Shown here: one piece after another, positions 40,101 through 61,483 of the stretch
Layout of the letters: each line of letters opens with the position of its first letter
Numbering within the stretch: position 1 is the stretch's first letter
Source of the DNA: a virus
IMG/VR virus record: IMGVR_UViG_3300025141_000016
Span: 124,001 to 188,000 of that record
Direction: 5' to 3' (one strand)
DNA: 64,000 bases
Program-made: the position numbers and the translations under genes
The notes under the pieces: model-generated
What the model was told of the DNA's origin: nothing
Databases searched by the model: none
The model's input: the letters and a program-made list of their open reading frames with translations, nothing else

Positions 40101-42625
40101 AAGTCACTGTCCGTTTGGAGTACGACAGTCTGGGGGCCTACGACCCGGATGCTGGGACGTTGGTCCTCAACATGTCACCGGGAGCCACCCCATACTGGAC
40201 AGACAACCTCAACACCAAGGAAGGGCAGCCCACCACCGATGTTGACTGGTACACCTTGGCGGTTAGTGGCACTCGTGTCAGCGGGATCAACTACCTTCCC
40301 ATGCAACAGATGGGGACGCATCTCCCAGCCAATAATGTGGTTGGACCCAATGAGGTCGATGATGGATTCGGGCTCGGAATAAGCCTCATCGCAGGTTTCC
40401 GAAACGTGCTTGTGGGGAACCGGAACCCCGACATTATCGACGCATACATCAGTGATGTAGGCGATGATGTGTTCAAGGACTTCAACACCCCCATCACAGG
40501 CAATCTTCAGAACACCGTATTGGGGGCTGTTGACCCCAACAGTCTTGGGGTGGGGATCCCACTTCCCAAAGACAATACCGACTTCTACCCAGTACGCGGG
40601 GAGGCGGTGTACGGCAGGATCTACGACAACACGGGGGCGGGGACTCAACAGACTGAAATGTCCGGGGTAGCGACCTACTTGGACCTGTCCCAATGGGCCT
40701 CGCTGCTCGTGGACGATGCCTGGAGCCTCATTCACTTTGGCGACACAGACACTCACGGCATCGTATTCTACGACTCCACAAACACCCTCATGGGTACGAT
40801 CCCCCTCCCCCAGCCTCCCATCGTTCCGTGCCTGTTGCCGGGGGACCGGATCGTGTTCGGGGACGACATAGACCCGGCAACAGCGGCTCCTGGCTTCTTT
40901 GCCCTGGCAGGGATCTTCTTGGAGCCATCCTTCCCCCTTCCCACCGCGAACCTTCATTTGACGGCCCCTCGGGTGGTGGCGGCTTCTTACGGGGCACTCA
41001 CCACAGCCGACGTTGGAACACGAAACGTCCACGACTACACCCCCACTGGCTCCCCCAACTTGGACAATGAGGGGGTCCACTACTTCGTGCGGCGTGTCCG
41101 ACGATGGCACGATGCCCAGAATGAGATCATCTCGGGGTTGGATCCTTTGCGGTTCGCCTATGAGATCCGCCGTGGGGTCACCGCTTCCTACTCGACAGCA
41201 TCAACCTCACGGACCTTCGTGGCCGATCTGGCGACGTATGGAGCCGCCACCAACCTGGGAGCCTTCACCAACGAGGACGTGAACATCCACGCCGGGGACA
41301 TGCTTCGGGTCTTTGACTCCACCACGGGGCTTCTTCTCGACACGGCTGAAATCGAGTCCGTTGAGGGCACCGCCACTCTACGGTTGAAGCGTCCTGGCCT
41401 GACCGAAACCATCGTGGGCGGTGAGCCCTTTGAGATTTACCTGAACCAGCCCATCATCCCCCATGAGCAATCCAATGAGCAGTTGATGGACCTCGTGACG
41501 GACTCTGTTGTGTTCCGCCGCACCGTGGACTACGCCGCAGCGGAGACAGAGGGCGGCAAGGTCGTCGCCACGGGTGAACTGTCCGACACCACGACGGGAC
41601 CGGGTGCGATTACCACCTGGGCAGAGGAGGGGGTCGAGGAAGGTGACTATGTGATCATCGACCCAGCCGGTGTCCTCTACGAAGACACCGAGAGGGGAGG
41701 CAGACCTCTTGGCGATCAGAGCGTCACCGGACGCGCAATCCACATCGCAGGTGGCCCCACCAAGCTGGATGATAACCGAGGCTTCTACAAGGTCACGGCA
41801 GTCGATAAAGACTCGTCAGGGGCCAGCTTACCGGGAACTCTTGCCGTGGACGGCGAGTCTCGCTTCTCGGACGGGAGCATTTTCGGGGAAGACCCCACTA
41901 CGGAAGGGTACGTCGTGCTGCCCCTCATCACGCAATCTGACCTAACAGGCGGGGCCGAGGGCCAGCAAGACCTCCGACCCACCGCAGAGCCCGTCCCTGT
42001 AGGCGGCTCTTACTTGGACCGGGTTACCCCCGATGACTTCAAGAGCATCGAGCCTTTCGGGTACGAGATCATCCGGCCCAACAACATTTTCTCCGAGGAC
42101 GCACTGGAACTGGTGTTGTTCATGCGGGAGAGGATGTTCTCATGGATGGAGGAGATCGTGATTTCCCGCTCCCAGAGCGGCGACTACTTCGTCTTCCAGC
42201 GGGACGACCACATCATCGACGTGGGCTCCGCGACGGACCCCCTTGCGGGACTCGGGTTGATCTCCAACATCGTGGCAGAGAGCCTTGCGGGGCTCACCGC
42301 GACGACCCCGTTCGCCAACGTATCCGACTGTTTGAGTGTGCTTGACCGACGCTTCTGGATCCTCGACTTCCGTTTGGATGCCCTGGGCTACACCCAGTTC
42401 GTAGATGATACGTGGGGGCAACGTCCTGTCCTCCCCGACCTCATCGACGGGGTGTTGAACCTTGACGACCGCTTCCGCGACCAGCGGTACTCGTGGGTGT
42501 CCTTCCGTGCCAACCGAGAGGATGGCTCCATTCAAACCGCCCGCCGAGCCGAGAACCGCCTTCCTGGCCGCCTCCAGAAGCAGCGAGAAGCGTTGCTTCG
42601 GAAGAAAGCCTTGGATGAGTCGTAG
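31169..42625 (+). CDS. Giant virion structural protein, 3818 residues
   Basis: This gene spans 11.5 kb from GTG 31169, with AAAAGGAG upstream. The protein is acidic, Gly/Thr/Pro/Asp-rich and beta-rich throughout, with few Cys and no enzyme motif visible. Many short segments look like small beta-sandwich or fibre domains (for example FFLLEGQTSFDLETD and VYNGVI-type strands). The last 200 residues are different, helical and basic. Position after hub and spike suggests a baseplate wedge, tail needle or fibre. Its size is extreme for one phage structural chain. Function is inferred from context only. Confidence 0.75.
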   Translation: MGFNLDGYVLRPARVASGNSPDTNEATTGVDRSQMDGAEMATLGYTVAPTGGRFTTAVEPYGDMYRAAVLQKPESREAEETYCVFAATTGSLSTVESEFLAQSASSDAVTVVPGTLAVEGGVWNDGTDTFLVLDPGGRDISSVSSLVIIKGPIVPGAPPTYVTITDGGSPGFLSQDPSIGKVVLDSTALDPAYLNGGFSKERGDQILLVTYILGGPTFWWTRNDQDVTRFGWDGKNQRWSPLQGSLPRDLGAVNGEDEFKLTPPLTRFAVGDMLPYDDTTTDSYALVRSGLYPDSISTPLTILVVTDEEAASGTWSGSWIDPATGTAADAVVGVYSGDLLLNPTYIEANAGRTLWYNPETFVVDADGDLGEVADFYPLALVPTSIGFPALSPVPGPTDRPFLRIGSRRYLTPYAVDTDADLPTPADFPAGNFYWSRMTGRIVLSKHDIDRCTPGASTTNPTPDFSDYDIFYLGARLYYDGVSLNTQPLPVKAPTPVFDEAGLPLDGDPETVPIFGKLYIPRAVPLPPPGISGVLWVPDGSGDTPSIDEKTIPLTRPNGCGMMREIEGIGDTFFFGESYAYEKTDVEEYDEDLPVLKFKVPKNTVAVSRLQDPDMTGSPLEEYSRLQMRRRLVKGEALYFLQAQITPSVYADEARIFSRFGEPFTLLGTETLTFNVDDFAGGYKWVATTLGAGEFSAAEVAADIQATSGVPAGSVGSLRGRIFIRDADLKIGKVEIGWDQSDATDLSGPAALGFLPGWRVSLPLPAAPAPNFCWLPDNGAAMGVFRSPVNMDRRDDTPDIRAKSQFDDLLLTDNITGMPFFSINQPPLEDMPGYDEGVHFRMAIGLLTVDLKNYHTTLGVGIKYDWVFDRLVWTEEGETSATQVAFPTSTLQLDHPAILPETVSALAMDDTAFGLRVKGPLDDSYATKIRGEDFLMPGGGQPGQALLVSVEGGVKASGGCGQFTAGTTTFEDPNVPDQDDLAAEVLVGYLLHVLTGEAEGVYQITKVTSGPPTVLNVFPAFPSSQTTAQWRVYEAKPRDEIDNTLVADVQQQVMNHLPSEPFKIRLLTSTGTVGGSLVAEVADAISSNRVISLRFGLGEGGNANEATPAYLVRGVKMGTVVATGLEIPDTSDLHFQTSLAGGTAYFSFRVGAAEFTSGVNLVMVAVAGTPAAGTVEIVAGSGEVVFADDVVSDLSGSTVFYDQQFLNPDDLTAGECEINASDGSINISTSDAGTYAGETAYFVEEMVTVNDLDVKTSPVSGSILFKKPLRAMQIVETNYFQADTNGDKATDTDGNYIEVTEFLPLIVKLEVATRIDDYTFSFNPTGRTYSEVVDPFMWVGVELQNFAGIETAFIEVDEDLGIYLIKLTSAVESTDEVKINYGVLEAFGGESAYTVSTPPVYRKPFFLLEGQTSFDLETDRSADFPVGHLLMLGPQPLYIKTVAYDITTDLTTVTITPDPLGELGSRAVGRDSGLTVSDFPVSVTLSPTDTEGFMPTLDTSTATGTPLLAVDRGQLEVVFYGDVRQYTKPNHLLEIEECPYIIINSSMSDDGRNTIVEIATPAYKAHDNSNTVRISMRPVYQPSPMEFAGIAPFVTSEEYNLFLMGATESGVGVPGKELIEGTHYTTDAATGEIIFQTPTQPPLNPGEWLHFRYTRQVVVNPLVKDDALLYPLYKGSYLYMTVPSVPNRLLGSVLRAKYTYRNPDSFYFSTLPMRNYLGDVAKVSAAKGGSAPSGGPVLAFPGESNMGSQGAMGLRGEAQDYRDQDRGGRVYVEFFNGVIVAFEQVLEAMDGRIIGDRDGKFLFFLGRDKRYPPPGYEDSISGELNPRLIWREVIENWSPSDYTDNDGWYMEADPVFDPTTAEIPDTGERPGAPDGITPDPHSLSFYTGRQRHRVKNDMDDRLLIGFGRPRGLAFLFPKFDVPGKFKDMWQDHEYSRLFPEKTTHFTRLFPGLEAVMGATGFTDPGYYSSGRKIEVPGPEPGETTEQKVKTRKTVNGVICNPALGDIQNISDVTAEDRHPRARVWAYYPLGSAELDAALGTTTASPPSATFVATPVPLSEFPINPDTGFPDITQLLSQGGGISDLESGDAALSTPAFVGSTTAGEAPRINFGKPDGTIYSLTADSDLNGVYIGEVQAGCVLVLVDVTGAPLAGSSVFVNETIPLEDVISADGGYGDTVFCGPTSGTLDPTSVPTQPTLDETAEATQGLPDYRIQFDLKVGRRSGTFIDASLPTADDAFPFPLQKWFGQNPPSPLSCVEGVVEFVNTSTQPLQLPCLLGEDKDDSGDYQIPYMRTTNTELVVLGEVAASLVLLFIDTSAALPLPAGVPAIEQQDLSLAVYPNEIVVNNGTIVQATDYPGYALNPATLYVGAAAADGDLRPVETAGAYTANSGIGDVRRFDLILSQADQALVGAGSIPAGMTGILTVGDVEQTAPSTDPNRPSTLETPRFVTPTATGMEHKYTIRGFAANVADDTGDNGFHITEVSGGGQRDTVFHFGTVPLIRLTELAALIPGTPPAAGVGNALVIRIYDADPSLAPATDPFIGALVIPWDDPGEVMYAWNEAAAATTAITTDPAGVGVVFTADTVSIQCVVAQPSIMVALGLVVSTHYDFTLDFDTYFDPDTVAFTSGVLVGGAGLGSLTCEVGRDRLTFKEALAFNLAKPRGYSPANDPGNTNHGHELGVQIAVHEVTCQGVQGFTVNSPAAINGAPAPGAAGFGTHYLTLLERMGPSPDASVSALVEYTGTWDGSDGSLRLMAWEGYENTPLAADVSTIKFAGVPSSNANETAEIAAGFGVMADKGFIDTTMGLDLDGNRDYIYGAALFFPLVPDVEAGDIVVVDAGTTSSEAVKAGTYLVRHAVSYDAGDAYATPAASIPFVQAPLRPARQWDDATAPVPKAEAKLAGTPSGSGGFDCVNVDFPTILEVDSVTNEVTLQGVVPVPGTPNGHGWADPATVPNNRHVHLILGDKYAEYDSATSAWHIKQVTVRLEYDSLGAYDPDAGTLVLNMSPGATPYWTDNLNTKEGQPTTDVDWYTLAVSGTRVSGINYLPMQQMGTHLPANNVVGPNEVDDGFGLGISLIAGFRNVLVGNRNPDIIDAYISDVGDDVFKDFNTPITGNLQNTVLGAVDPNSLGVGIPLPKDNTDFYPVRGEAVYGRIYDNTGAGTQQTEMSGVATYLDLSQWASLLVDDAWSLIHFGDTDTHGIVFYDSTNTLMGTIPLPQPPIVPCLLPGDRIVFGDDIDPATAAPGFFALAGIFLEPSFPLPTANLHLTAPRVVAASYGALTTADVGTRNVHDYTPTGSPNLDNEGVHYFVRRVRRWHDAQNEIISGLDPLRFAYEIRRGVTASYSTASTSRTFVADLATYGAATNLGAFTNEDVNIHAGDMLRVFDSTTGLLLDTAEIESVEGTATLRLKRPGLTETIVGGEPFEIYLNQPIIPHEQSNEQLMDLVTDSVVFRRTVDYAAAETEGGKVVATGELSDTTTGPGAITTWAEEGVEEGDYVIIDPAGVLYEDTERGGRPLGDQSVTGRAIHIAGGPTKLDDNRGFYKVTAVDKDSSGASLPGTLAVDGESRFSDGSIFGEDPTTEGYVVLPLITQSDLTGGAEGQQDLRPTAEPVPVGGSYLDRVTPDDFKSIEPFGYEIIRPNNIFSEDALELVLFMRERMFSWMEEIVISRSQSGDYFVFQRDDHIIDVGSATDPLAGLGLISNIVAESLAGLTATTPFANVSDCLSVLDRRFWILDFRLDALGYTQFVDDTWGQRPVLPDLIDGVLNLDDRFRDQRYSWVSFRANREDGSIQTARRAENRLPGRLQKQREALLRKKALDES

Positions 42626-46286: not shown

Positions 46287-48839
46287 GTGTCTGGGAAACG
46301 TCGCCAACCATCGCCCTCGCGGGTAGCCAAGAAGTGGAAGAAACTCCCGAAGGGGTGGACAGAGGAGTCCGTCGAGAAGTTCTGGGACACGCTGACGGGG
46401 GGCACCCCGGAGCACAAGGTCTGGGACTGCATCGACAAGATGACCAAGCCCTTCGGAGATGGTGCGGGTGCTTTCTGTGGTGGGCTGGCCGACTGGCAGA
46501 TGCCTGGATGGAGACAGAAGAACAAGAAAGAGTCTCCTGACGCTCGCTCCGATGCCAAGTCCTACTGGAAGGGCAAGATCAAAAAAAGGGCCAGCGCAGA
46601 GCGCGTGGCCGAGGAATGGTTTTCTGGAGCCCGAATGGCAAGCGCATCCGCACCCGTATTGAAGTTCCTCCAACGACTTCGGGGGAAGGGCAAGGGGGCT
46701 CTGAACATCAATGTGTTGGAAGAAGCCCTCCCGCTTCTGGGCTGGTCAATCACCAAGACCACAGCACCCCTCCGCATCGCTGATCCTGACTCGGTGAAGC
46801 CCCTACTGGAAGCCATGCTGAACCCCTCTTTCATCTGGGGGTACAGTGGGACCAAAGAGCCCAAGCGCGTTGACTTTGATAGCGTGGAGGAGGCCGAAGC
46901 AGGGCTGCGGAAATGGCAGAGGGAAGCCCAGAAAGGGAAGCCTCCCCGTCACCCCACCTTCAAGAAGTTCTACTACACCCAGGCTCTCTACCCGGTGGAG
47001 GAGAGAGCGGGCGGCTCCCGATTCAAGACGGGCTACTTCTTCGACATTATGGGCCTGTGGCTCGGGGTGGAAGCCTATGAGGTCACGAACCCCTCGGGAG
47101 CCTCGGTCCTCTTGCCCCTCAAACCTGACTACCGGGGTCGGTTCAAGGTCGATCTCCTACGCTGGAAGATGGCCACGTTCTGGACCTGGGCCTACAAGAA
47201 CGGCATCCAAGACGACGCAGCCGCATACCTCGATACCATCGGGGCCGAGGAAGTGGCGCGGGTCACAGCACCCGCCAGCGCCCGGTCCCTCGACGGCACT
47301 GGGACGTGCCCCGCGTGCTTCAATAATGTGAAGCTGCGGCGGGGCGAGAGAATCATGCGGCATGGCTGGCAGGTACAGGGTCAACGCCAATGGGGTTCCT
47401 ACGGGAACACATGGCACACCGGTCCCTGTTTCGGCACGGGCTACGTTGCTTTTGAGTTGAGCCCCGACGGGACCAAGGACTACCGGGACCAAGTTGTGAT
47501 CCCCTACAAGGGCAGCGTGGAGAACGAACTGGCCCGCGTGAAGCGGGGGGCCGACCCCATCACAGTGGATAAGGGTCGTCGTTGGGAGAGGACACTCCAA
47601 CCCGGCGACCCCGAGTATTCCCGGTATCAAGACATATCTATCAAGCAGGGGACCAAAGCTGTCTCCGACCTTGAGCAAGACATTCGGACCCTGGACTCTC
47701 GGATCACGGGCTGGAAGGAAGCACCTCTGCCTGGAGCGCGGATGGCGAGTTCCGTCCGGGTGGCTCTCCGGTTCGCCGTGAGGAAGGCACCTCCCATGCA
47801 GATGGGGTCAGCCACCATGCTCAAAAAGCAGGGGCTTACCCCTGTGGATGTGTTTTTCGGTGAGGCACGACCCCACAACAGGCCGACCCTGCAACTACTG
47901 GATTCTGTGCAAGACCGGAAGGGGGACGTGTACTTCTTTGTGGGGGTGGCCCCAGACGGGAGTGCCATCCTCGCTGAAACCGAAGGTGAGGCGAAGCGCA
48001 AGCACCGCAAGATCATCGAGGATCGGAAACACTACGAGTCGCGGATGGCTGACGGAAGTCCGCTCATGCTCCAACCCGACTACGGCACATCGAACGCTGC
48101 CCTCCCCCGTGAAGGAGCACGAACCAAGGGAAAGAGTCTGCCCGAGACGGGGTACACCCTCTCCGTAGCTTCCATCTATCGTGCCGTTCCCGCTGGGGTC
48201 ACCACCATCGAGCCGATGGACTATGTGACCCGCACCAAGAAATGGGCGCAGGGCCATGCTGACCATGTGGCTGCGGTGGAGGAAGACGAAGCAGTCGTCC
48301 TCAAAGCCATGGTCAAGGCAGCAGACGTGTATGAAGCCTCCAACCCCGGTGAATACTTCTACGATGGGCCTGCCGTGCGGGGCCGCGTTGTCTACCGGCA
48401 ACGGTATGCGTCGGTCCACAAGACCGCTCGGGACTTCCAGTTGACCGAGTTGGAGATCACCCCTGGCCAGGAACCCGCCTCCCCCGACATTGACTTCGCG
48501 ACGGTGATCACCGCCGAGTTCCTGTTGGACGGGAAGCCTCTGGCAAAGGTGCTCGGGGTCCAGCAACGGACCCTGGAACGGCACCTCGCCAAGCACTCGT
48601 CACGGAAGCTGCTTCACGCCCTTTTCGATTCCAAGGAAGGCGAGCGCATCCTGACGGCTCTCCAGCCCAAGATCAAAGCCATCCTGGCTGACCACGGCGC
48701 GGAACAGGGGCAAGGTCATCCCCACCATCTCTCTATCGAGTGGGACGCAGGGAGCAGCATCAACTCGGCTGCGGCTCGTCCGGGCCGTGGGGTCCACTAC
48801 ACGGTGGAGATCGACGCGCATGGAGAGTGGTCAGAATAA
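46287..48839 (+). CDS. Multidomain effector-like protein with ART-like domain and RVA linkers
   Basis: This is an 850-residue protein from GTG 46287, with GAGGAAG upstream. Residues 8-78 contain SPSRVAKKWKKLPKGW, then SVEKFWDTLTGG and GAFCGGLADW, a module I have the impression recurs in large phage proteins. Linkers are RASAERVAEEWFSGARMASA (101-120) and GARMASSVRVALRF (483-496). C341, C344, H377 and C381 could bind zinc. Residues 626-700 resemble an ART (IYRAVP with R632, then DYVTRT and GEYFYDG with E689). The same linkers and domain types occur at 830-6137 on the other side of the tail operon. The protein is probably packaged or injected, which is inference. Confidence 0.72.
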   Translation: MSGKRRQPSPSRVAKKWKKLPKGWTEESVEKFWDTLTGGTPEHKVWDCIDKMTKPFGDGAGAFCGGLADWQMPGWRQKNKKESPDARSDAKSYWKGKIKKRASAERVAEEWFSGARMASASAPVLKFLQRLRGKGKGALNINVLEEALPLLGWSITKTTAPLRIADPDSVKPLLEAMLNPSFIWGYSGTKEPKRVDFDSVEEAEAGLRKWQREAQKGKPPRHPTFKKFYYTQALYPVEERAGGSRFKTGYFFDIMGLWLGVEAYEVTNPSGASVLLPLKPDYRGRFKVDLLRWKMATFWTWAYKNGIQDDAAAYLDTIGAEEVARVTAPASARSLDGTGTCPACFNNVKLRRGERIMRHGWQVQGQRQWGSYGNTWHTGPCFGTGYVAFELSPDGTKDYRDQVVIPYKGSVENELARVKRGADPITVDKGRRWERTLQPGDPEYSRYQDISIKQGTKAVSDLEQDIRTLDSRITGWKEAPLPGARMASSVRVALRFAVRKAPPMQMGSATMLKKQGLTPVDVFFGEARPHNRPTLQLLDSVQDRKGDVYFFVGVAPDGSAILAETEGEAKRKHRKIIEDRKHYESRMADGSPLMLQPDYGTSNAALPREGARTKGKSLPETGYTLSVASIYRAVPAGVTTIEPMDYVTRTKKWAQGHADHVAAVEEDEAVVLKAMVKAADVYEASNPGEYFYDGPAVRGRVVYRQRYASVHKTARDFQLTELEITPGQEPASPDIDFATVITAEFLLDGKPLAKVLGVQQRTLERHLAKHSSRKLLHALFDSKEGERILTALQPKIKAILADHGAEQGQGHPHHLSIEWDAGSSINSAAARPGRGVHYTVEIDAHGEWSE

Positions 48840-48853
48840 ACATCTGACCTGTG

Positions 48854-49714
48854 TTACTCGGTCACCAGTGAGGTGAGCACCGTCCTTCGGGATTGGCTGC
48901 CTTTGGGGAGAGCAGAAGCCAGTCGAATGAGGGCTTGGCGGGCTTGGCGGGAAGCGCGACGATGCTTGGCGGCTTCTCTTTCAGGCATATCGACCACGCC
49001 CTGCGCCCACACCTCTCCGACCTTTCCGGTGGGTGTGAGATAGACGCGCTTGGCGCTCTCCACAGGGATGTTCCAGTCCCCGGTTTCGGGATCCTGGCGC
49101 ATGAACCAAGTCATCCCTTCATGGGGGTTGTACCGAAGTTGAGTGTCGGTCTTACGACCCCCGCCCATACCGCCGTACTTCCCAATGATTCCCGCGTGAA
49201 CGGTCTTGTTCCCATCGTCCTCTGCCATCTTTTGACCTCCGGCTCGGACGATGAAGGTCGCATCACTGATGACGGTGGAAGGGACGTGGGCAACGGTGCG
49301 GCCCGAGAGGTTGGGGTTCTCTTTGACGGAAAAGGATTTGAGGTTGTAGTGCTTCTTCTTGTAGCCGAGGTTGAGATGGACAGCGACTCGGGAACCGCGC
49401 TTGGCAACATCGAAGTAGTAAGGGCTCGTGAGGAGAGCCTTGCGTTCTGCCTCGGACACATCTCCTTTGAGGGCTCGCTTGATGAGATCAGCATCCTTCG
49501 ATGCGTCCCACCTACGGTTGGCGGAATCTTCGATCTCCTGGCGTTGCTGTTCGGTGAGCCCATCGACGTTGAACCCTTCAGCGAGGGCATCACTGTGGAG
49601 GTCGGGGTGGCGCAAGGTGGCGAGAATGACCCGGCGCTCGGCATCACCGGGCGGGAGGGCAAGAGCCACCCGCACGAGAGTCTTTCGGGTAGATGCTGTG
49701 AGAGAGCGTGGCAT
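48854..49714 (-). CDS. Hypothetical protein with matching motifs at both ends
   Basis: This is a 286-residue protein with AGGAG before ATG 49714. The N-terminal segment (RKTLVRVALALPPGDAERR, near 10-28) and the C-terminal segment (RQALIRLASALPKGSQSRR, near 259-277) share the pattern L(I/V)RxAxxLPxG followed by RR and a Leu-rich helix. The central region contains HVPSTVISDATFIV, KTVHAGIIGKY and QLRYNPHEGMTWF, a beta-rich fold I do not recognise. The end motifs resemble the RVA linkers of the effector-like proteins, so they may be processing or packaging signals. Confidence 0.6.
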   Translation of the reverse strand: MPRSLTASTRKTLVRVALALPPGDAERRVILATLRHPDLHSDALAEGFNVDGLTEQQRQEIEDSANRRWDASKDADLIKRALKGDVSEAERKALLTSPYYFDVAKRGSRVAVHLNLGYKKKHYNLKSFSVKENPNLSGRTVAHVPSTVISDATFIVRAGGQKMAEDDGNKTVHAGIIGKYGGMGGGRKTDTQLRYNPHEGMTWFMRQDPETGDWNIPVESAKRVYLTPTGKVGEVWAQGVVDMPEREAAKHRRASRQARQALIRLASALPKGSQSRRTVLTSLVTE

Positions 49715-49779
49715 AGAGGGAACTCCTGTTGATCTACCTCACCGATAGGGAGGATACCGCTTTACCGAGTCGTCTCACG

Positions 49780-49787
49780 GGTAGAGT
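49780..49787 (+). promoter_or_regulatory. GGTAGNGT octamer before the zinc-ribbon gene
   Basis: GGTAGAGT lies in the 98-base gap between the divergent genes starting at 49714 and 49813, and ends 25 bases before the GTG. Here the TAG is not a stop codon of a neighbour, so it is one of the better examples. Confidence 0.4.
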
Positions 49788-49812
49788 AGAGGCCCACCCA
49801 GGAGGAAGCCCA

Positions 49813-50070
49813 GTGTATGAGAGTCGGGATCAACGAGCGCAAGTAGAAGCGTGGATCAACGCACAACCTACCTGCCCCACACGGAAGCAAACCCAACGGC
49901 AGTTCCCCGACGTGCTCCAAAAGCACGTTAGGGCAGCCCTCCAGTCCCGAAAAGATCGGGACAAGAAAGCTGCCCAAGGTGTGTGTACGCGATGTGGGGG
50001 TGAGGTGCCTGCGGGTAACGACTACGCCGTGTGCCCTGCGTCGAACTTCACCCTCCCGTGTGTGGCATGA
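49813..50070 (+). CDS. Small zinc-ribbon protein
   Basis: I chose GTG 49813, giving 85 residues, because AGGAGG sits 7 bases upstream; longer in-frame starts lack a ribosome binding site. The N-terminal half is helical and basic (VEAWINAQPTCP, LQKHVRAALQSRKDR). The C-terminal half has CTRCGG and two later Cys, a likely zinc ribbon. A nucleic-acid-binding role is possible. It overlaps the next gene by 4 bases. Confidence 0.65.
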   Translation: MYESRDQRAQVEAWINAQPTCPTRKQTQRQFPDVLQKHVRAALQSRKDRDKKAAQGVCTRCGGEVPAGNDYAVCPASNFTLPCVA

Positions 50071-50183
50071 AGTTCTACGGCCCGCGTGGAGAAGGGGTCA
50101 TCCGACCCGACTGGAAGGTCATCCTCCCCACCATCATCATCCTCTTGCTGTTTACTGGTGCCCTCACCTACTGGTTTCAATAG
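50067..50183 (+). CDS. 38-residue single-helix membrane protein
   Basis: The ATG at 50067 overlaps the upstream TGA. The peptide has a polar N-terminus (MKFYGPRGEG) and one strong transmembrane helix (VILPTIIILLLFTGALTYW). Translational coupling supports it as a real gene. The function is unknown; it is too short for a canonical holin, but a membrane role is clear. Confidence 0.6.
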   Translation: MKFYGPRGEGVIRPDWKVILPTIIILLLFTGALTYWFQ

Positions 50184-50244
50184 AAAGTGTATGTCTGCAA
50201 GGAAGTGTCGCGAGGATACGCGGCTGTCCTGAAGAGAGTTCCCG

Positions 50245-50436
50245 ATGCCCCTGTTTGAATACCGTTGCGAGAACAAGGCTTGCGACCACAGATTTGAGCG
50301 CCTTGTTGGCCACACCGAGCGTGACAAGCCCCAAGAGTGCCCCAAGTGCAAGGCAAAGCACACCCAGAAACTCATCTCGCAGACCTCGTTCGCTCTCAAA
50401 GGAGGGGGTTGGGCAGCGGATGGATATGCCAGTTGA
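50245..50436 (+). CDS. FmdB-type zinc-ribbon protein
   Basis: This is a 63-residue protein. MPLFEYRCENKACDHRFE followed by CPKCKAKHTQKLIS is the usual layout of the FmdB/CxxC putative regulatory family: an N-terminal Tyr/Cys strand, a second CxxC pair and a short basic tail. Here the first Cys pair is C8 and C13 (CENKAC), a wider spacing than CxxC. Members are thought to bind zinc and have been tied to gene regulation, but the phage role is unknown. Confidence 0.75.
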   Translation: MPLFEYRCENKACDHRFERLVGHTERDKPQECPKCKAKHTQKLISQTSFALKGGGWAADGYAS

Positions 50437-50509
50437 CCTGTGCGTAGAGGTGGAGGCAGCCCTATTCGCCTTGTGTGGGTGTGTTTCATCCTTGGGGGAG
50501 ATAGCCAAG

Positions 50510-50517
50510 GGTAGTGT
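50510..50517 (+). promoter_or_regulatory. GGTAGNGT octamer before the glutamine synthetase gene
   Basis: GGTAGTGT ends 21 bases before ATG 50539, in a 102-base non-coding gap that also holds the AGGAGG ribosome binding site. It is a candidate promoter core. Confidence 0.4.
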
Positions 50518-50538
50518 GCCTGGGGCACAGGAGGTTCA

Positions 50539-51615
50539 ATGACTGTTTACGCCGAGTACATCTGGATCGATGGGGTCCAGCCCACACAAACGGTACGGTC
50601 GAAAACCAAGGTGCTCTGGGGGCACAACGACGGGGAAGTCTTTTGCGACAACCCCCTCGATCCTGACTGCTACCCCCATTGGGGGCATGACGGCTCCAGT
50701 ACCGGACAGGCCGAGGGCGGTGACTCCGATTGCGGGTTGGTCCCCGTCCGGGTCTTCAAGGATCCCATCCGAGGGGGCAACCATGTCCTCATCATGTGCG
50801 AGGTCACTGATGCAGACGGCACCCCTCACGAGTCCAACTCCCGAGCCCTGCTGCGTGAGGTCATTGACTGCGTTGGGGTGGAAGCCCAAAAGTGCTGGTT
50901 CGGCATGGAGCAGGAGCACACCCTGTTCCGAGGTTCACGCCCTCTGGGTTTCGGGGATGACCGCCGTTTCCCCCCATCGCAAGGCCCCTACTACTGTGGG
51001 GTCGGAGCCGATGAGGTCTATGGGCGCGATCTCATTGAGGAACACATGCGGGCATGTGTCGAGGCGGGCATCAGAATCAGTGGCATAAACGCCGAGGTGA
51101 TGCCCGGACAGTGGGAGTTCCAAGTGGGGCCGTTGCCCCCGCTGGAGGCAGGGGATCATCTCTGGGTGGCCCGCTGGCTCCTCTACCGACTCGGTGAGAA
51201 GCACGGAATCCACGCCACACTTGACCCCAAGCCTGTAGCTGGAGACTGGAACGGTGCCGGGATGCACACCAACTTTTCTACGGCGGCGATGCGAGAGGCA
51301 GGCGGCATCCAACACATCGAAGATTGGTGCCTCCGGGCGCGGGATCACGTCGAGGGACACCTCGCGGCCTACGGAGACGGCATCGAAGCCCGTCTCACCG
51401 GGAAGCACGAAACGTGTTCCTACCACCAGTTCAAGTGGGGGGTGAGTGACCGCACCGCCAGCATCCGAATCCCGATGGGAACAGCCAAGGATGGTTACGG
51501 GTACTTGGAAGACCGTAGGCCCAACGCAAACGCTTGCCCCTACGAAGTGGCATCCGTCATGCTCCGCACAGCCTTCAGTCAATGGCCCCAGAACGTAGTC
51601 CGACCTGCGTGTTGA
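50539..51615 (+). CDS. Glutamine synthetase, type II (GSII)
   Basis: This 358-residue enzyme should join ammonia to glutamate using ATP. The GSII signature is continuous: YAEYIWIDG (4-12), HDGSSTGQAEGGDSD (50-64), WFGMEQEHTLF with E124 and E126 as metal ligands (120-130), NAEVMPGQWEFQVGP (184-198), DWNGAGMHTNFST (236-248), GKHET (288-292), DRTASIRIP (304-312) and GYLEDRRPNANACPY (321-335). The length is normal for the eukaryote-like GSII found in plants, Rhizobium and actinobacteria, not the 450-470 residue bacterial GSI. AGGAGG precedes the ATG. It is probably an auxiliary metabolic gene that supports nitrogen supply during infection. Confidence 0.95.
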   Translation: MTVYAEYIWIDGVQPTQTVRSKTKVLWGHNDGEVFCDNPLDPDCYPHWGHDGSSTGQAEGGDSDCGLVPVRVFKDPIRGGNHVLIMCEVTDADGTPHESNSRALLREVIDCVGVEAQKCWFGMEQEHTLFRGSRPLGFGDDRRFPPSQGPYYCGVGADEVYGRDLIEEHMRACVEAGIRISGINAEVMPGQWEFQVGPLPPLEAGDHLWVARWLLYRLGEKHGIHATLDPKPVAGDWNGAGMHTNFSTAAMREAGGIQHIEDWCLRARDHVEGHLAAYGDGIEARLTGKHETCSYHQFKWGVSDRTASIRIPMGTAKDGYGYLEDRRPNANACPYEVASVMLRTAFSQWPQNVVRPAC

Positions 51616-51624
51616 GGGGGGTGC

Positions 51625-51825
51625 ATGACCAAGAGCCAGATGTGGGCACCATCCGTAGGGAACCCTCTCTTTGCACGGCTCCCAAAGAGGTTTCAGTGGG
51701 CTTTCCACAACCTCATCGCTCATCCCTTGTCCGAGATCCTGTTCCAGTTCGGGTGTGAGGAAGCGGGCAACCGGCTCCACGACTGGTCGGTCCCTCTCCA
51801 TGAGAGAGGGACAGGCAGGGGGTGA
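51625..51825 (+). CDS. Small phage protein with HNLIAHPL motif
   Basis: This is a 66-residue protein 9 bases after the glutamine synthetase gene, with GAGGGGGG before ATG 51625. RFQWAFHNLIAHPLSEILFQFG, then AGNRLHDWS, is a pattern of small phage and plasmid proteins of unknown function, with a moderately hydrophobic helix containing two His. Close spacing suggests co-expression with glutamine synthetase. An inverted repeat (GTCCCTCTC/GAGAGGGAC) overlaps its 3' end. Confidence 0.65.
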   Translation: MTKSQMWAPSVGNPLFARLPKRFQWAFHNLIAHPLSEILFQFGCEEAGNRLHDWSVPLHERGTGRG

Positions 51826-51908
51826 GAAAAGATCCAGTCCCTCTCCCGCTTCCCGTTTGTTCCGAACGCCTGGGGTGTCAGGAAGTGGTGAGGGGGGCTC
51901 TGCTCCCG

Positions 51909-52202
51909 TCAGATGAACAGGGGAGGTTGGTCGTCCAGGGGCCTCACCACAGCCTGGGCGTATTCAGCAGGTGACAGTTCGACCTCGTTGCCATTAGGGT
52001 CTGTCGCTGCCATGACCCAATAGGGGGCCGTCTTCCACTCCAGGGAGTCCAGAGGCACCCCATCAGAGGTGTGGGTGCCATCGGGGGGTCCAAGGACCAC
52101 ACGCCCGTTGCAGACGGCCCAGGGGAACTGGTCACCGACGGCAAGGTGAACGGTCAGACGTTGGTCCCCCCGTCGGAGGGTGATGGTCTTATCCGGCATC
52201 AT
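51909..52202 (-). CDS. Small beta-rich hypothetical protein
   Basis: The product is 97 residues from the ATGATG at 52202, with GAGGAG 7 bases upstream; it overlaps the 3' end of the upstream gene by 14 bases. Alternating strands (TITLRRGDQRLTVHLAVGD, then YWVMAATDPNGNEVELSP) suggest a small beta-barrel. The function is unknown. The 83 bases between it and the convergent gene at 51825 hold nothing recognisable. Confidence 0.6.
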   Translation of the reverse strand: MMPDKTITLRRGDQRLTVHLAVGDQFPWAVCNGRVVLGPPDGTHTSDGVPLDSLEWKTAPYWVMAATDPNGNEVELSPAEYAQAVVRPLDDQPPLFI

Positions 52203-53610
52203 TCGCTGTCTCCTCGCCCAACATGTAGGTGTGGGACTCAACGGCTCCGGCTTCTGTGCGGGAACCTTTCTGATAAGGCATTACCCACCGACGCTTGGCT
52301 GCGAGTTTTTCCCGCTGCTCATTGGCGCTCTTTTGGGCCTGTTCATGGGCCTTCCGCAACGCCGTCAGGTGAGGGAGATGGACCGCAAGGTCTTCGGGCT
52401 CTGACAGCCCCTCGGTACTCTGCACCATCTCGTCGTATGCTTCGGAAGCTGCCTGGACCTGGGCTTCTGCTGCCGCGATGCGACGGCGGATGGTATCCCG
52501 ACGAGGCCACCAGTGACCACGGACCCAATGCCTACGCTGGGGTGACCCAGAGGCGTTCTTGGAGCCTGTCGTCCCCCCAAAGGCCACAGAGCGACCTATC
52601 CAGACCACGTTGTCCACGGGCAGGGCAGCGAGACGCTTACGGAGATGCCGTCCCTTACGCTTCCGCTGATTCTTCATGCGGTCCAGGGCGGCTTGAATCT
52701 TTGAGCGTTCCTGGGTTGCTTCGACACATTCCGGGTCCACCTGTTGATCGGCACCCTCGGAGTCGAGGTAGAGCAGCGCGTTGAGGATGATACGGACCAC
52801 CGTGAACACACTGTCCGCGATCTTCTGGTCGTGGTCAGTTCCGCGACCCCAGGTAGCCGCGAGTCCCGGTGCATCCACAGGGCCGAGAGCCATGGGGTCG
52901 AGAGTCATAGGGGCAGTTCCCCCCAAGGCGACCGTGGGCTCACCCTGTTCGTTGCGGTACAGCCCCCGGAGCGCATCAGTCTGGTCCCTGCCGCCCTTCG
53001 CCAAGACGGAGAGGAGATAGGTTTCCACGTCCATCTTTCCCATCTCGTTGAGGTCCAGGGCCAACCAGATCGACGCATCATCCCCTGGCATCATGGATGC
53101 GTCATTTTCCATGCCCCAAAGGTAGAAGTGAATCACTCCCTTGTCTTGGTCGGGGGAGGGGGGAATCACGAGTGCAGACTTCCCGTCTGCACCCATCTTG
53201 TACCCTTCCTCGCCATGGCTGTGGCGAAGGAAGACTCCCCCCACCTTATGCCAACGGGTGTCTTCGCCGCCCCATATCTCGTGCTCACATCCCGGCAGCG
53301 CGATGTACTGGCTCGTGTAGGGGATCCGAATGTCCTCCACCCCCACCTCTTCCAGTGAGGTACGCGCCAGTGCTTCCTGCATAGGGGCCGGGATCACGAA
53401 CGACTGATTCCCTGACAGCCGGTAGTGGGCGAGGTGCAGCGTCAGGCAGTAGAGGGATCGGTGAAAGCCCACTCCTGGCACGTTGAAAAGGGCCTGGAGA
53501 GAACGAGGGTCAACCTCCCCTCTGACCAAACCGTCGATGATCCGCTCGTGAAACTCATCCCGAGGTACTTCGCGGGGCATCATTCGGATTTCGTTGAGTG
53601 CAGTGCTCAT
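52189..53610 (-). CDS. Hypothetical protein with RRHWVRGHWW-type C-terminus
   Basis: The product is 473 residues from ATG 53610, about 44 bases after promoter copy B; the longer frame would include the promoter. Residues 1-270 form an alpha/beta region. Residues 300-350 are basic (KNQRKRKGRHLRKRL). The region VWIGRSVAFGGTTGS, then RRHWVRGHWWPRRD and, after a coiled-coil insert (RRRIAAAEAQVQAASEAYDE), RRWVMPYQKGS and HTYML resembles a C-terminal block of unknown function in some actinobacterial and phage proteins. It is probably an early gene given its own promoter. Confidence 0.7.
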   Translation of the reverse strand: MSTALNEIRMMPREVPRDEFHERIIDGLVRGEVDPRSLQALFNVPGVGFHRSLYCLTLHLAHYRLSGNQSFVIPAPMQEALARTSLEEVGVEDIRIPYTSQYIALPGCEHEIWGGEDTRWHKVGGVFLRHSHGEEGYKMGADGKSALVIPPSPDQDKGVIHFYLWGMENDASMMPGDDASIWLALDLNEMGKMDVETYLLSVLAKGGRDQTDALRGLYRNEQGEPTVALGGTAPMTLDPMALGPVDAPGLAATWGRGTDHDQKIADSVFTVVRIILNALLYLDSEGADQQVDPECVEATQERSKIQAALDRMKNQRKRKGRHLRKRLAALPVDNVVWIGRSVAFGGTTGSKNASGSPQRRHWVRGHWWPRRDTIRRRIAAAEAQVQAASEAYDEMVQSTEGLSEPEDLAVHLPHLTALRKAHEQAQKSANEQREKLAAKRRWVMPYQKGSRTEAGAVESHTYMLGEETANDAG

Positions 53611-53653
53611 AGTGTTCCTTGACCGCTCAATGCGGAACTGGATGGGGGTTTCT

Positions 53654-53690
53654 CCTATACGGAGAAGCACGGGGGAGTTGAACCCCCCCA
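53654..53690 (-). promoter_or_regulatory. Class I promoter-like repeat, copy B
   Basis: On the - strand: a G run, TTCAAC (53677-53682), a 17-base spacer ending CTTCTCCG, then TATAGG (53654-53659). It lies 44 bases before the ATG of the 473-residue gene. See copy A for the family. Confidence 0.6.
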
Positions 53691-53697
53691 AACGAAG

Positions 53698-53737
53698 AAA
53701 ACCCACCCCTCCCCAAAATGGGGGTGGGGTGGGTTCC
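53698..53737 (-). terminator. Terminator hairpin on the - strand
   Basis: AACCCACCCC and GGGGTGGGTT with an inner CCCC/GGGG pair form a long GC-rich stem with loop ATTTT, followed on the - strand by TTCTTC. It lies just upstream of promoter copy B and would isolate it from transcription of the 53884-54252 gene. Confidence 0.7.
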
Positions 53738-53883
53738 CTCGCGAGGTGGTCTACTGGTCACTGGGACGGAGGACAGTCCCCTCCCAGATCGTGGACCCGC
53801 AAGCGCGGGAGATAACAGGCGAAGGGGGCTGGGCTTACACGGCTCAACTACCGAGGCTCAACGGCCCCCTTCGCGATAAGGGT
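53738..53883 (-). other. Non-coding, structured intergenic region
   Basis: No ORF with a ribosome binding site covers these bases. An 11-bp perfect inverted repeat (GCGAAGGGGGC 53819-53829, GCCCCCTTCGC 53864-53874) encloses two direct copies of GGCTCAAC. A smaller hairpin (CCCG/CGGG near 53796-53810) lies beside it. It follows the gene ending at 53884 on the - strand, so it could be part of its 3' untranslated region or a small RNA. Confidence 0.45.
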
Positions 53884-54252
53884 TCAGATGGTACAGGCTT
53901 CGGCCAGTGCGACCATCTCGGCTCGGGCGGCTCGCCAGTTACGGCCAGCCACTCGTCCCTCCCAAGACCGGCCCTCGCTGCCGAGGCCGAGGCCGACGAA
54001 CACGTCAGGGTAGGAGTCGTAGTGCGCGGAGTTGCACAGGGTCGTGAGCCGACCCTCGACGGCTTCGTCTCCGGTCAAGAGACGGGCCAGTTCGTAGCGC
54101 ACCGGGAAGTCCGGTCGGCCCTTGTCGTAGTGCTTACGACGCGGCCAGGACACCACGAGCACACCGTTGGCGGCTTCGTGGAGGATAGTGAGGTCACCAC
54201 CAACGCAGTTGACGGTGAGCCGGTCGCCTTCACGGCGGGCGATGATTCCCAT
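53884..54252 (-). CDS. Hypothetical protein
   Basis: The product is 122 residues from ATG 54252, with GGAG 7 bases upstream. An N-terminal beta region (IIARREGDRLTVNCVGGDLTI) is followed by a polar region and an Ala/Arg helix (NWRAARAEMVALAEA). No family is recognised. It has an unusually long leader of about 213 bases from promoter copy C. Confidence 0.65.
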   Translation of the reverse strand: MGIIARREGDRLTVNCVGGDLTILHEAANGVLVVSWPRRKHYDKGRPDFPVRYELARLLTGDEAVEGRLTTLCNSAHYDSYPDVFVGLGLGSEGRSWEGRVAGRNWRAARAEMVALAEACTI

Positions 54253-54464
54253 GTCAGTCTCCAAAGCAGGGGGTCAAAGAAAGCGCAGATGCCGCCACCC
54301 AGCCCGATGCCTCGGGCATCTTGGGTGTCGTCGTGTGCATCCCGCATAAATGTCGCTTCAAGGTATCAACCCGCTTGAGGCACCGGGCGTTGCTCTACCG
54401 TCATCCCTGCTCTGGCAACCGTCAAGCAGGGGGCTTTGGCTGGTCGTTGAATCCCCCGTCCACT
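54253..54464 (-). promoter_or_regulatory. Long 5' leader with hairpin
   Basis: This 212-base stretch between promoter copy C and ATG 54252 holds no convincing ORF. It contains a two-part hairpin at 54296-54327: CACCCA pairs with TGGGTG, and GCCCGA pairs with TCGGGC around a four-base loop, with an ATCT bulge. The other class I leaders are only 40-53 bases, so this one may carry a regulatory RNA element. No known riboswitch class is recognised. Confidence 0.4.
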
Positions 54465-54500
54465 CTTATAGGGAGATAGGGGGGGTGAGTTGAACCCCCC
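54465..54500 (-). promoter_or_regulatory. Class I promoter-like repeat, copy C
   Basis: On the - strand: a G run, TTCAAC (54489-54494), an 18-base spacer ending TATCTCCC, then TATAAG (54465-54470). It is the copy with one extra spacer base and the farthest from its gene. Confidence 0.6.
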
Positions 54501-58419: not shown

Positions 58420-59412
58420 TTATTTCTTCTTCTTACCGGAGCCGAAGGTCACGCGACCCCCCACTTCAATGACGCGATCCTTTGGCTTGGCCGGAGCCCA
58501 TGGGTCAGTCTCCTCGGCAACAGGGGGAGGGGCCTCCCCTCCGACCATGATCCCCCCTTGGGGAACAGAGGTGTTCATCCTCGTGGGGACGGGTTGAACC
58601 GGGGCAGCCACAGGGGGCGGGGAAGGATCATTGGCGGGCTCCACTACCTCGCGGGGTGCGTTCGCGATCCGAAAGGCGAGATCGCGAGCGTGCTTGCATG
58701 GGTTCTCCCGTGACGGGCACCCACATTCCCACCGCTCATCGGCATGGAGCACCACCTCGTAGATGGGGTGCTTGCCATCCTTCCCCACGGAGTCTCCCCG
58801 AACCTTCCATTTCCCCTCGATCTGGGGCTGTGTCGATTCCGACACTTCCGATTCTCGGCGTTCAACCTCCGCTTTCGGGGAGGGATAAGATTTCTTATCC
58901 TCGGGTAAGATTTCTTGTGCTGCCGAAGAGTCGGACTTGTCCGACTGTGGGGTCACTGTTGTAGGGGGCGTGGGGTCATTAGTGGGGTCAGCCTGGGGCT
59001 CGGGATCAGGCTCGTCAACTGGAGGGGATTCCGCCTGAAATGCAGCGGGGGGAGTCACCACTCCCATCATCTCCGCAGCCGCTCGGCCTACCTCGGCATC
59101 GGTGACGGGTTCCCAGTCTCCCTTCCTGTCTGAAATCTCCAACGCGATAGCGTGGCGCATCATGTCTCGGAAGTCGGGAAGGCCCATGTCCTCGGCAGTC
59201 CCCGGAGGGGCGAACTGCGGATTGTGGAGTAGGCGGTCTTCCTGGGTCAGCATCCGTTGGCTCCACTTCGATCCCCCTCCCCGACTGTTGCTACAGCCTG
59301 GGTTCAGACAGACGTTGCAGAACATCTGCTTGAACTGCTCGGGGGCCAACAGCTTCCGGTGCTCACCGTCGTAGCAACCGTCCCATAGGTCGGGGAGGGT
59401 CTTCTTGGCCAT
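58420..59412 (-). CDS. SWIM zinc-finger protein with Pro-rich linkers
   Basis: The product is 330 residues from ATG 59412, overlapping the thymidine kinase stop (TGATG). An N-terminal Cys cluster is at 32-40 (CNVCLNPGC). Residues 128-200 are a Pro/Asp/Ser-rich disordered linker. CGCPSRENPCKH at 230-241 matches the SWIM zinc-finger form CxC...CxH, preceded by a strand region (YEVVLHADERWE). SWIM domains bind DNA or proteins, and occur with SWI2/SNF2 proteins and MuDR transposases. A long Pro-rich tail ends in basic residues. The role may be DNA targeting of the modification enzymes encoded nearby; that is inference. Confidence 0.7.
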   Translation of the reverse strand: MAKKTLPDLWDGCYDGEHRKLLAPEQFKQMFCNVCLNPGCSNSRGGGSKWSQRMLTQEDRLLHNPQFAPPGTAEDMGLPDFRDMMRHAIALEISDRKGDWEPVTDAEVGRAAAEMMGVVTPPAAFQAESPPVDEPDPEPQADPTNDPTPPTTVTPQSDKSDSSAAQEILPEDKKSYPSPKAEVERRESEVSESTQPQIEGKWKVRGDSVGKDGKHPIYEVVLHADERWECGCPSRENPCKHARDLAFRIANAPREVVEPANDPSPPPVAAPVQPVPTRMNTSVPQGGIMVGGEAPPPVAEETDPWAPAKPKDRVIEVGGRVTFGSGKKKK

Positions 59413-60026
59413 CAGCCTCTCCTCCCCCTCGCCCAACAGAGACGGCAACGGGCCTCATAGACTCCCGCTGCCCCAACCTGTACCAGTTCCCCCGTCGAGC
59501 GTTCGGGGATCCTGTACGAGCGCGTGGCTGGGTTCCCGCACACGGGACGGTCATACTTATCGACCACAGCCACGCACACGGCGGTCAGTTTGGTCACCTT
59601 GTCAGCACGAGCGAGGAGTTCGGCCATCGGCCCAAAGGGCTCGCCATTGGAATCGAGATCGAGCCCCGCCACAATGACCCTACGCCCTCGGTTGGCTTGG
59701 TCCTCCAACACCTCTACGACCTCGGGGTCCATGAACTGCACCTCGTCTACGCCCACTACCTCACCCGTGAGCGAGAAAGGATGGATAGCCAACGCCGCTT
59801 TGAGTTCAGCCACGGTAGAGACAGGGATCGCCCGAAAGGACTCGGAAGGTGTTTCCACACCGCTCACCACGACAGGGTGCGTGGCGATGCCCTCGGTCAC
59901 ATAGCGGTCATCCAGCGAAGGCTTGAACGCTTGGACATGCTGACCCGCGATCACACATCGTCGGAGCCGACGGATCAGTTCCTCGGACTTCCCCGAATAC
60001 ATGCAACCAGCAATCACTTCCAACAT
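59412..60026 (-). CDS. tdk: Thymidine kinase, type II
   Basis: The product is 204 residues from ATG 60026; the GTG at 60029 in frame adds one residue. The P-loop GCMYSGKS is at 7-14 and the DEVQF motif at 94-98. A CGN segment and CRLC form the usual structural zinc site near the C-terminus. It phosphorylates thymidine (or deoxyuridine) to supply dTMP. Many large phages carry this enzyme for nucleotide salvage. It is translationally coupled to the genes on both sides. Confidence 0.93.
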   Translation of the reverse strand: MLEVIAGCMYSGKSEELIRRLRRCVIAGQHVQAFKPSLDDRYVTEGIATHPVVVSGVETPSESFRAIPVSTVAELKAALAIHPFSLTGEVVGVDEVQFMDPEVVEVLEDQANRGRRVIVAGLDLDSNGEPFGPMAELLARADKVTKLTAVCVAVVDKYDRPVCGNPATRSYRIPERSTGELVQVGAAGVYEARCRLCWARGRRG

Positions 60027-60388
60027 CACCCACCCACCTGCTTGTAGAAACGACTCGTGCCGCTCTGTTCATCCAACACACCCACAGGACAACGGGGGAC
60101 GCACCCCCGTCGGCACCCTGGAAGGTGCTGGAGGATGAGATTCCCCGGCCACCTGCCTTGCTTCTGGCCTTTGGTCTGGTGGGTGGTGAACCCACCCTCA
60201 TACTTGCCGTACACCTTGTCATCGGCGGTGGCGGCTCCGGCTCCCTGTGTATGGGTCGTCAGCACTTCACCTGTCCGACAGGCGATCCGAGAAGCATCAA
60301 TGTTCAGCCCCCCACACCCATGCCGGAGGGTGTTGGCCGCGACAGTGCCCTCGGACAAGGGCTTCCGTAGGACGTGGACAACCCTCAT
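60026..60388 (-). CDS. Stand-alone methyltransferase middle (RKPLSE) module, copy 2
   Basis: This 120-residue protein begins VVHVLRKPLSEGTVAAN and HGCGGLNI, contains GRWPGNLILQHLPGC and ends with CPVGVLDEQSG and SRFYKQV. These are the middle-region motifs of phage beta-class DNA methyltransferases, normally found between the DPPY motif and the HPTVKP/motif I end. It has neither catalytic motif. It is closely similar to the gene at 61480, so it may be an alternative target-recognition subunit for the split methyltransferase upstream. Confidence 0.7.
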   Translation of the reverse strand: MRVVHVLRKPLSEGTVAANTLRHGCGGLNIDASRIACRTGEVLTTHTQGAGAATADDKVYGKYEGGFTTHQTKGQKQGRWPGNLILQHLPGCRRGCVPRCPVGVLDEQSGTSRFYKQVGG

Positions 60389-60981
60389 TGGCCGAGTCCT
60401 GGCTTCTCCAGAAACCAGAGACGGTCAGGGTTCGTGTAGGTGTGGGTGAGTTCCTCCCCAGCATCAATGTTCCGCTTGGCATAGAAGTCCACAAACCGAC
60501 GATTGGTGTCAGGGTCAATGTAGGGTTCGTGCCGGAGGTTGGAGTGCATGGACCGTTCGTGGTTGTAGAGCATCCCGTAGCCCAGCAGGAGAACCCGATA
60601 CTTCTTCGTTGTGTCCTCTGCTTCGTCCACGATCCAAGGGAACAACATGTGCCCAAGCCTGATGTTGTCTTTTGAATCCGAATACGGAGCCATCGCCAGA
60701 GCGAGTAAGTGGGGGTTGACTTCCACGACGAACGCGGGGCAGCGTTCTACGAGTGACTTCTCGGGGATAAGGAGCGAAGTTACCACCCCCATCCCGCGAC
60801 CAGAAATATGTCGCAGTTGAAGGTGGCTGTTCTGCCCCAGCGGGATGAAGTCTCGTCTCTGACGATCACCCATGTCCTTCCCGCAGAAGCGACAGTTAGG
60901 AAGCGCATCCGAAAAAGAACTGATCTGACGGTATTCGTTGAGCATCCCACAGTGGGGGCATACAGCTTGCTTTATGTCCAT
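60385..60981 (-). CDS. SET-domain protein (putative protein lysine methyltransferase)
   Basis: The product is 198 residues from ATG 60981; a GTG at 61020 would extend it into the upstream gene. An N-terminal zinc ribbon (C8, C11, C30, C33) is followed by SET signatures: SGRGMGVV (60-67) for AdoMet binding, LLGYGMLYNH (132-141) as the usual NH motif, and AKRNIDAGEELTHTY (168-182) with the catalytic Tyr region. The fold is short but complete in order. It should methylate protein lysine; the substrate is unknown and may be a host or virion protein. SET genes are common in eukaryotes and some bacteria but rare in tailed phages. Confidence 0.8.
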   Translation of the reverse strand: MDIKQAVCPHCGMLNEYRQISSFSDALPNCRFCGKDMGDRQRRDFIPLGQNSHLQLRHISGRGMGVVTSLLIPEKSLVERCPAFVVEVNPHLLALAMAPYSDSKDNIRLGHMLFPWIVDEAEDTTKKYRVLLLGYGMLYNHERSMHSNLRHEPYIDPDTNRRFVDFYAKRNIDAGEELTHTYTNPDRLWFLEKPGLGQ

Positions 60982-60988
60982 TTCTGCA

Positions 60989-61483
60989 TCACCCCAAGTT
61001 GAATCCGTCGCCACGCACAACGATCACATGGCGGCCTTCCCGCCATGCTGACAATACCCGCAGGAAAGTCTCGGCTACCCCTCTCGGGGTGCCCTCCGAG
61101 AGAGGGGGTTCGTAACATTCGGGGGGGCCTTCCTTCCGCCGATACCCCCTCCCGCTGAATCCCCCCGGTCGGCAGAGGGGGGCCTTCCACCCAATGCAGT
61201 TGCCTTTGAGAGCACACTCCCCTTCCTCGGCACTGACCCGACGCGCACTCGCTCGGGGATCACGCCCGAGTTCCTGTACCAACGGATGAAGCCGCCCATG
61301 TAGGGCATGAGACAACGCCTCGGCGGGGATCTCCTTGATCCCGCCTTCCCATGACGTGCCCCGCACCGACTCCAGCGCCCCCCAGTGGTCCGACTCCTCG
61401 GGGACGAACTCGATGAGCAGCAGCACCTTTTCGGCCTTGTGGTCCGGCAACGGGTCCGGGTCGGTGAGGTCAATGAACCTCAC
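60989..61483 (-). CDS. Hypothetical Cys-containing protein
   Basis: The product is 164 residues from GTG 61483, overlapping the upstream stop (GTGA). The N-terminus is alpha/beta (AEKVLLLIEFVPEESDHWGA). The middle has spaced Cys (ECALKGNCIGW, PLC and PECYEPP) that may bind metal. No family is recognised. It lies between a methyltransferase module and the SET gene. Confidence 0.6.
   Translation of the reverse strand: MRFIDLTDPDPLPDHKAEKVLLLIEFVPEESDHWGALESVRGTSWEGGIKEIPAEALSHALHGRLHPLVQELGRDPRASARRVSAEEGECALKGNCIGWKAPLCRPGGFSGRGYRRKEGPPECYEPPLSEGTPRGVAETFLRVLSAWREGRHVIVVRGDGFNLG

Follow-up and report, generated by a model that had tools for sequence, protein, structure and literature searches.

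Does the frame at 50539-51615 encode a type II glutamine synthetase (GSII) that truly belongs to a phage, and what would the phage gain from it? The gene lies in a stretch of 64,000 nucleotides (the window), positions 124001-188000 of a virus record 297,104 bases long, where a first-pass annotation had read it as a phage-borne GSII that supplies glutamine for nucleotide synthesis or escapes host control during infection. Taken as a whole, that interpretation was partly supported. The frame runs through 358 codons with zero internal stops, and its product matched both Gln-synt_N (PF03951, 1.6e-9) and Gln-synt_C (PF00120, 1.7e-22) in Pfam. The best NCBIfam model was GlnII (7e-142, 472 bits, nearly the whole model covered) vs. 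65 bits for type I GlnA and 51 bits for type III. At 472.4 bits, the protein falls short of the curated 500-bit cut-off of the GlnII model NF041605, which is a naming threshold and no biochemical criterion; a viral relative, L053, clears it with 534 bits.

We then compared the product with known structures. A phmmer search of the PDB gave GSII of Streptomyces coelicolor (PDB ID code 4BAX) as the top match (E = 9.4e-123), followed by animal, plant, and yeast GSII, while the best non-GSII glutamine synthetase reached 4e-15 vs. 9e-123. An AF2 model of the phage protein (pLDDT 84, pTM 0.88) likewise had 4BAX as its best PDB match (TM 0.85/0.89); it aligned with GSII structures at TM 0.80-0.89, and its best 50 PDB matches were all GSII. 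The chain combines a beta-grasp N-domain with a catalytic domain, and its length lies within the ∼330-370 aa of the class. The product was thus confirmed as a type II glutamine synthetase. It shares both domains, the active-site residues, and 55% identity (structural alignment) with the S. coelicolor enzyme (GlnII), from which it differs in being phage-borne, in a 9-residue insert after residue 27, in a short C-terminal extension, and in its sub-cut-off GlnII score.

The active site is intact. All 12 catalytic positions of maize GSII (D56, E129, E131, E192, E199, H249, R291, E297, R311, R316, E330, and R332) are identical in the aligned phage protein (D51, E124, E126, E186, E193, H243, R285, E291, R305, R310, E324, and R326, respectively), so that the metal-, glutamate-, phosphate-, and ammonium-site residues are present. 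The same positions are invariant across the 82 viral and 80 cellular copies that we aligned and identical in fly and Streptomyces GSII. The full motif set claimed for the intact frame was therefore borne out, and the active-site mutations that might have spoken against the claim were absent. Judged by these residues, the phage enzyme is most likely catalytically competent.

We found the gene to be phage cargo rather than host flank because the record carries a terminase and because a second assembly reproduces the locus. The terminase is a match to phrog_2 in PHROGs (506-1873 of the 297-kb record, E = 1e-24), a family that we take to be the terminase large subunit; the Pfam terminase model gave zero matches. 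The second assembly is an independent IMG/VR contig of 150 kb, with one mismatch over 21,074 bp around GSII. In a codon-usage model trained on the large genes of this phage, GSII comes out as a lone plus-strand gene between flanks on the opposite strand (Table 1), with the right-hand block starting at 51909, and the codon usage of GSII agrees with that of those large genes. Homologues of the 505-aa right neighbor lie 2-10 kb from GSII in four related virus contigs (L003, L005, L006, and L007), and those of the 842- and 265-aa genes lie 1-7 kb from it in L006 and L007; from the homologues around GSII in these last two, we conclude that GSII has settled in this phage group. The 842-aa protein bears a weak likeness to tape measure proteins, and none of the neighbors of GSII has a metabolic annotation. 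The carrier is a very large (jumbo-class) uncultured tailed phage. The claim of phage residence thereby held, with no sign of a prophage boundary with host genes.

Table 1. Features at and around the GSII gene (positions in the window)
Feature	Position	Strand	Basis or remark
Two phage genes, 842 and 265 aa	42898..46223	+	Homologues near GSII in L006, L007
Left neighbor, L5 gp82-like	48854..49714	-	Codon-usage model; Phage_L5_gp82 domain match (4e-15)
Leader without convincing gene, ∼820 nt	49715..50538	+	No Rfam match, no sigma-70 site
Shine-Dalgarno AGGAGG	50529..50534	+	4 nt before ATG; strong
GSII, eukaryote-type	50539..51615	+	358 aa; active-site residues intact
Right neighbor, unknown phage gene, 505 aa	52189..53706	-	Homologues in L003, L005, L006, L007

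The signals before the gene were a mixed case. The good ribosome binding site read at first pass is there, whereas the candidate promoter was not recovered: a sigma-70 scan of 48500-54500 gave 0 sites, and shuffles yield 1.0. GSII presumably has its own promoter in the leader, which may be phage-specific. A search of the leader against Rfam for riboswitches or other known RNAs gave zero matches. We also considered an operon or a translational coupling with the open reading frame at 49979-50542, whose stop codon overlaps the start of GSII, and rejected it because the codon usage of that frame is noncoding (-0.45 bits per codon).

Elsewhere in the window and record, we noted several further genes. 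Volactin, an actin-like family known from Haloferax volcanii, is represented by two genes (E ∼1e-77), one at 7822-8835 (plus strand) and one beyond the window (293993-294952 of the record); three further virus records with GSII (L025, L048, and L037) also contain genes of this family. A single frame of 3818 aa (31169-42625, plus strand) has no Pfam match, and a relative 42% identical to it is encoded near GSII of L007. Two long proteins (830-3847 and 46287-48839) share a ParB C-terminal-like domain (phrog_2579), and 86-aa stretches of the second show 57-71% identity to proteins near GSII in L003, L005, and L006. A SET-domain protein (60385-61020, minus strand; 5e-5), with the fold of eukaryote-type lysine methyltransferases, is encoded in this phage near a thymidine kinase gene (59412-60029).

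How unusual such a gene is depends on where one looks. The statement that phages rarely carry glutamine synthetase holds for GenBank phage records, where GSII occurs in 4 megaphage records among 50,697, two of which (LR756501 and LR756503) are apparently one genome, with weak 24-28% matches in 11 further unannotated records. Among uncultured viruses it does not hold: GSII relatives are encoded by at least 106 IMG/VR contigs, several of them >200 kb, and this is a lower bound because the search used exact peptide patterns from our single query. Counts from uncultured viruses thus correct the impression of rarity left by catalogued phages. The megaphages LR745206, LR756502, and LR756501 (= LR756503), of 634-735 kb, resemble our phage in carrying GSII with an intact active site; their enzymes differ from ours in sequence (∼46% identity) and have a deep branch of their own in the tree. 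In a library of predicted viral structures, only distant matches were found, the top named ones being amidoligases; these phage COOH-NH2 ligases have a distant GS-like fold (TM 0.2-0.4, 8-15% identity) and are not GSII.

Published work already names glutamine synthetase among the auxiliary metabolic genes of jumbo phages (PMC13037316), nine moraphages (PMC12619734), ocean viromes (PMC9083009), and eukaryote-infecting giant viruses (PMC9270025). Like our phage, the moraphages, mostly assigned to Bacteroidota, and the jumbo phages are described there as large tailed phages with a glutamine synthetase gene, for which a role in nitrogen metabolism is proposed. The passages found in openly licensed papers do not state the class of the viral enzyme, repeated origins, or a pairing with glutamine sinks. 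The presence of glutamine synthetase in jumbo phages was thus already known; the findings here point to a broader pattern.

To place the viral copies, we built a tree of 96 viral and cellular rows. The viral copies form at least four groups, and several viral clades are well supported: clade A contains our phage, clade B stands beside a Myxococcota copy, clade C beside actinobacterial GSII, and clade D comprises the megaphages. A single viral origin was rejected (AU p = 0.0008 with all rows), and again (AU p = 0.0001) when insecure MAG rows and long branches were removed. Since the viral copies are not one clade, GSII must have passed from cells to viruses or back at least two to three times on the restricted row set, an unrooted count. 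The tree suggests that phages acquired bacterial GSII more than once, a direction that the unrooted count by itself leaves unproven. The phylogeny proposed at first pass to find the donor thus returned several viral groups and no donor for ours, as the branch linking clade A to cellular rows is weak (83/57). Its nearest "bacterial" rows, L082 and L083, are MAG contigs labelled Myxococcales and proteobacterium; both contigs carry phage-type genes, so that we rejected them as bacterial donors and take them as probably viral contigs binned into MAGs. Purifying selection on viral GSII is strong (median dN/dS 0.07 over 55 measurable pairs, which are partly nonindependent).

We next examined the genes that accompany GSII in related phages. 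In clade B, the gene order is 5′-3′ exonuclease, DnaB helicase, ribonucleotide reductase (RNR), ClpP, GSII, ThyX; this linkage counts once because clade B is one phage lineage. In clade C, IMP dehydrogenase (IMPDH) lies within 3 kb of GSII in five lineages. At L061, glycosyltransferases come after GSII, together with a full GlmS, the enzyme that uses glutamine to form glucosamine-6-phosphate, and the records of L059 and L067 show GATase_6 matches in frames of equal size. Within clade A, the phage of L006 (G003) encodes a full glutamine-hydrolysing GMP synthase (GuaA) and IMPDH. Across 34 GSII virus records, 17 carry RNR, 12 carry IMPDH, and none carries PII, counts that come from GSII-bearing records alone and hence are no measure of enrichment. 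In 10 loci of clade B and 6 of clade C, GSII has a ClpP-like protease upstream of it (L026 5382-6146 and relatives), and in many of these the two genes adjoin directly.

The 297 kb of our own phage, a possibly incomplete record, held none of RNR, IMPDH, class-I GATase, GATase_6, or PII. The first-pass idea that the glutamine feeds nucleotide synthesis therefore stands on other phages, where RNR, ThyX, IMPDH, and GuaA occur beside or with GSII; with no searched sink here, it is for this phage something that we infer, and the glutamine would have to be consumed by an enzyme of the host.

Nucleotide and amino sugar synthesis both rely on glutamine as the common nitrogen donor. The first-pass idea of an escape from the adenylylation that controls GSI would fit GSII biochemistry. 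We consider it likely that the gene is catalytically competent cargo that tops up glutamine during infection, outside the control of host type I enzymes. The enzyme would make glutamine from glutamate, ammonium, and ATP; the extra glutamine would donate amide nitrogen to nucleotides, amino sugars, and protein while the host supply is limiting; and the phage enzyme would be free of the adenylylation and feedback by which many host type I enzymes are controlled. This proposal builds on demonstrated features, namely the fold, the active site, phage residence, repeated transfer, selection, and linkage in relatives. Catalysis in vivo, its timing, the escape from host control, and the sink that matters in this phage are what we infer from them.

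A different possibility is that GSII acts mainly on host nitrogen signalling, high glutamine reporting sufficiency and holding off the nitrogen-starvation response. Our phage, with none of the searched sinks, would suit such a role, and viral PII, a regulator of the same pathway, has been reported in other ocean viruses (PMC8115048). We nevertheless regard it as unlikely: in relatives, GSII keeps company with sinks and nucleotide genes, not regulators, and the presence of RNR and IMPDH together with the lack of PII in the 34 records favors glutamine supply to biosynthesis over a regulatory role.

It is more doubtful still that the enzyme couples glutamate to a different amine, such as a polyamine, ethanolamine, or methylamine. 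Some GS-like enzymes do use other substrates (GlnA3, PMC5403932; GlnA4, PMC6529630), and our protein scores just under the GlnII cut-off. The known cases, however, are type I-like, the gamma-glutamylputrescine synthetase model matches far worse than GlnII (51 vs. 472 bits), and the ammonium-site D51 and E291 are kept in 82/82 viral copies. That we are looking at a host gene (a prophage flank, mis-assembly, or contamination) is highly improbable and already contradicted: most other window genes lack annotation, and because of this viral identity was judged on few markers, but those markers, the identical 21 kb, the flanking homologues in L006 and L007, the phage-like codon usage, and the occurrence of GSII on more than 100 further virus contigs all oppose it. 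A noncatalytic role, as a virion part or binding partner, might be read from structural genes near GSII in clade A (tape-measure-like in the window, tail-sheath-like in L012), yet it is just as hard to credit, given full conservation of catalytic residues across deep divergence, unexpected for a structural role, and GSII's place among metabolic genes in clades B and C.

The preferred reading, glutamine supply by phage cargo, extends tentatively to the family. It is possible, if slightly short of an even call, that viral GSII is a long-resident family in which several deep lineages of large phages independently took the gene from bacteria, kept it under strong selection, and each coupled it to its own sink or pathway (dNTP/ThyX; GMP via IMPDH and GuaA; amino sugars via GlmS), so that the virus owns both supply and consumer. 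If the repeated independent uptake is real, glutamine supply would be a genuine bottleneck of infection, the gene pairings would tell which product the glutamine serves, and the acquired enzyme would be one that escapes the usual form of nitrogen regulation by the host.
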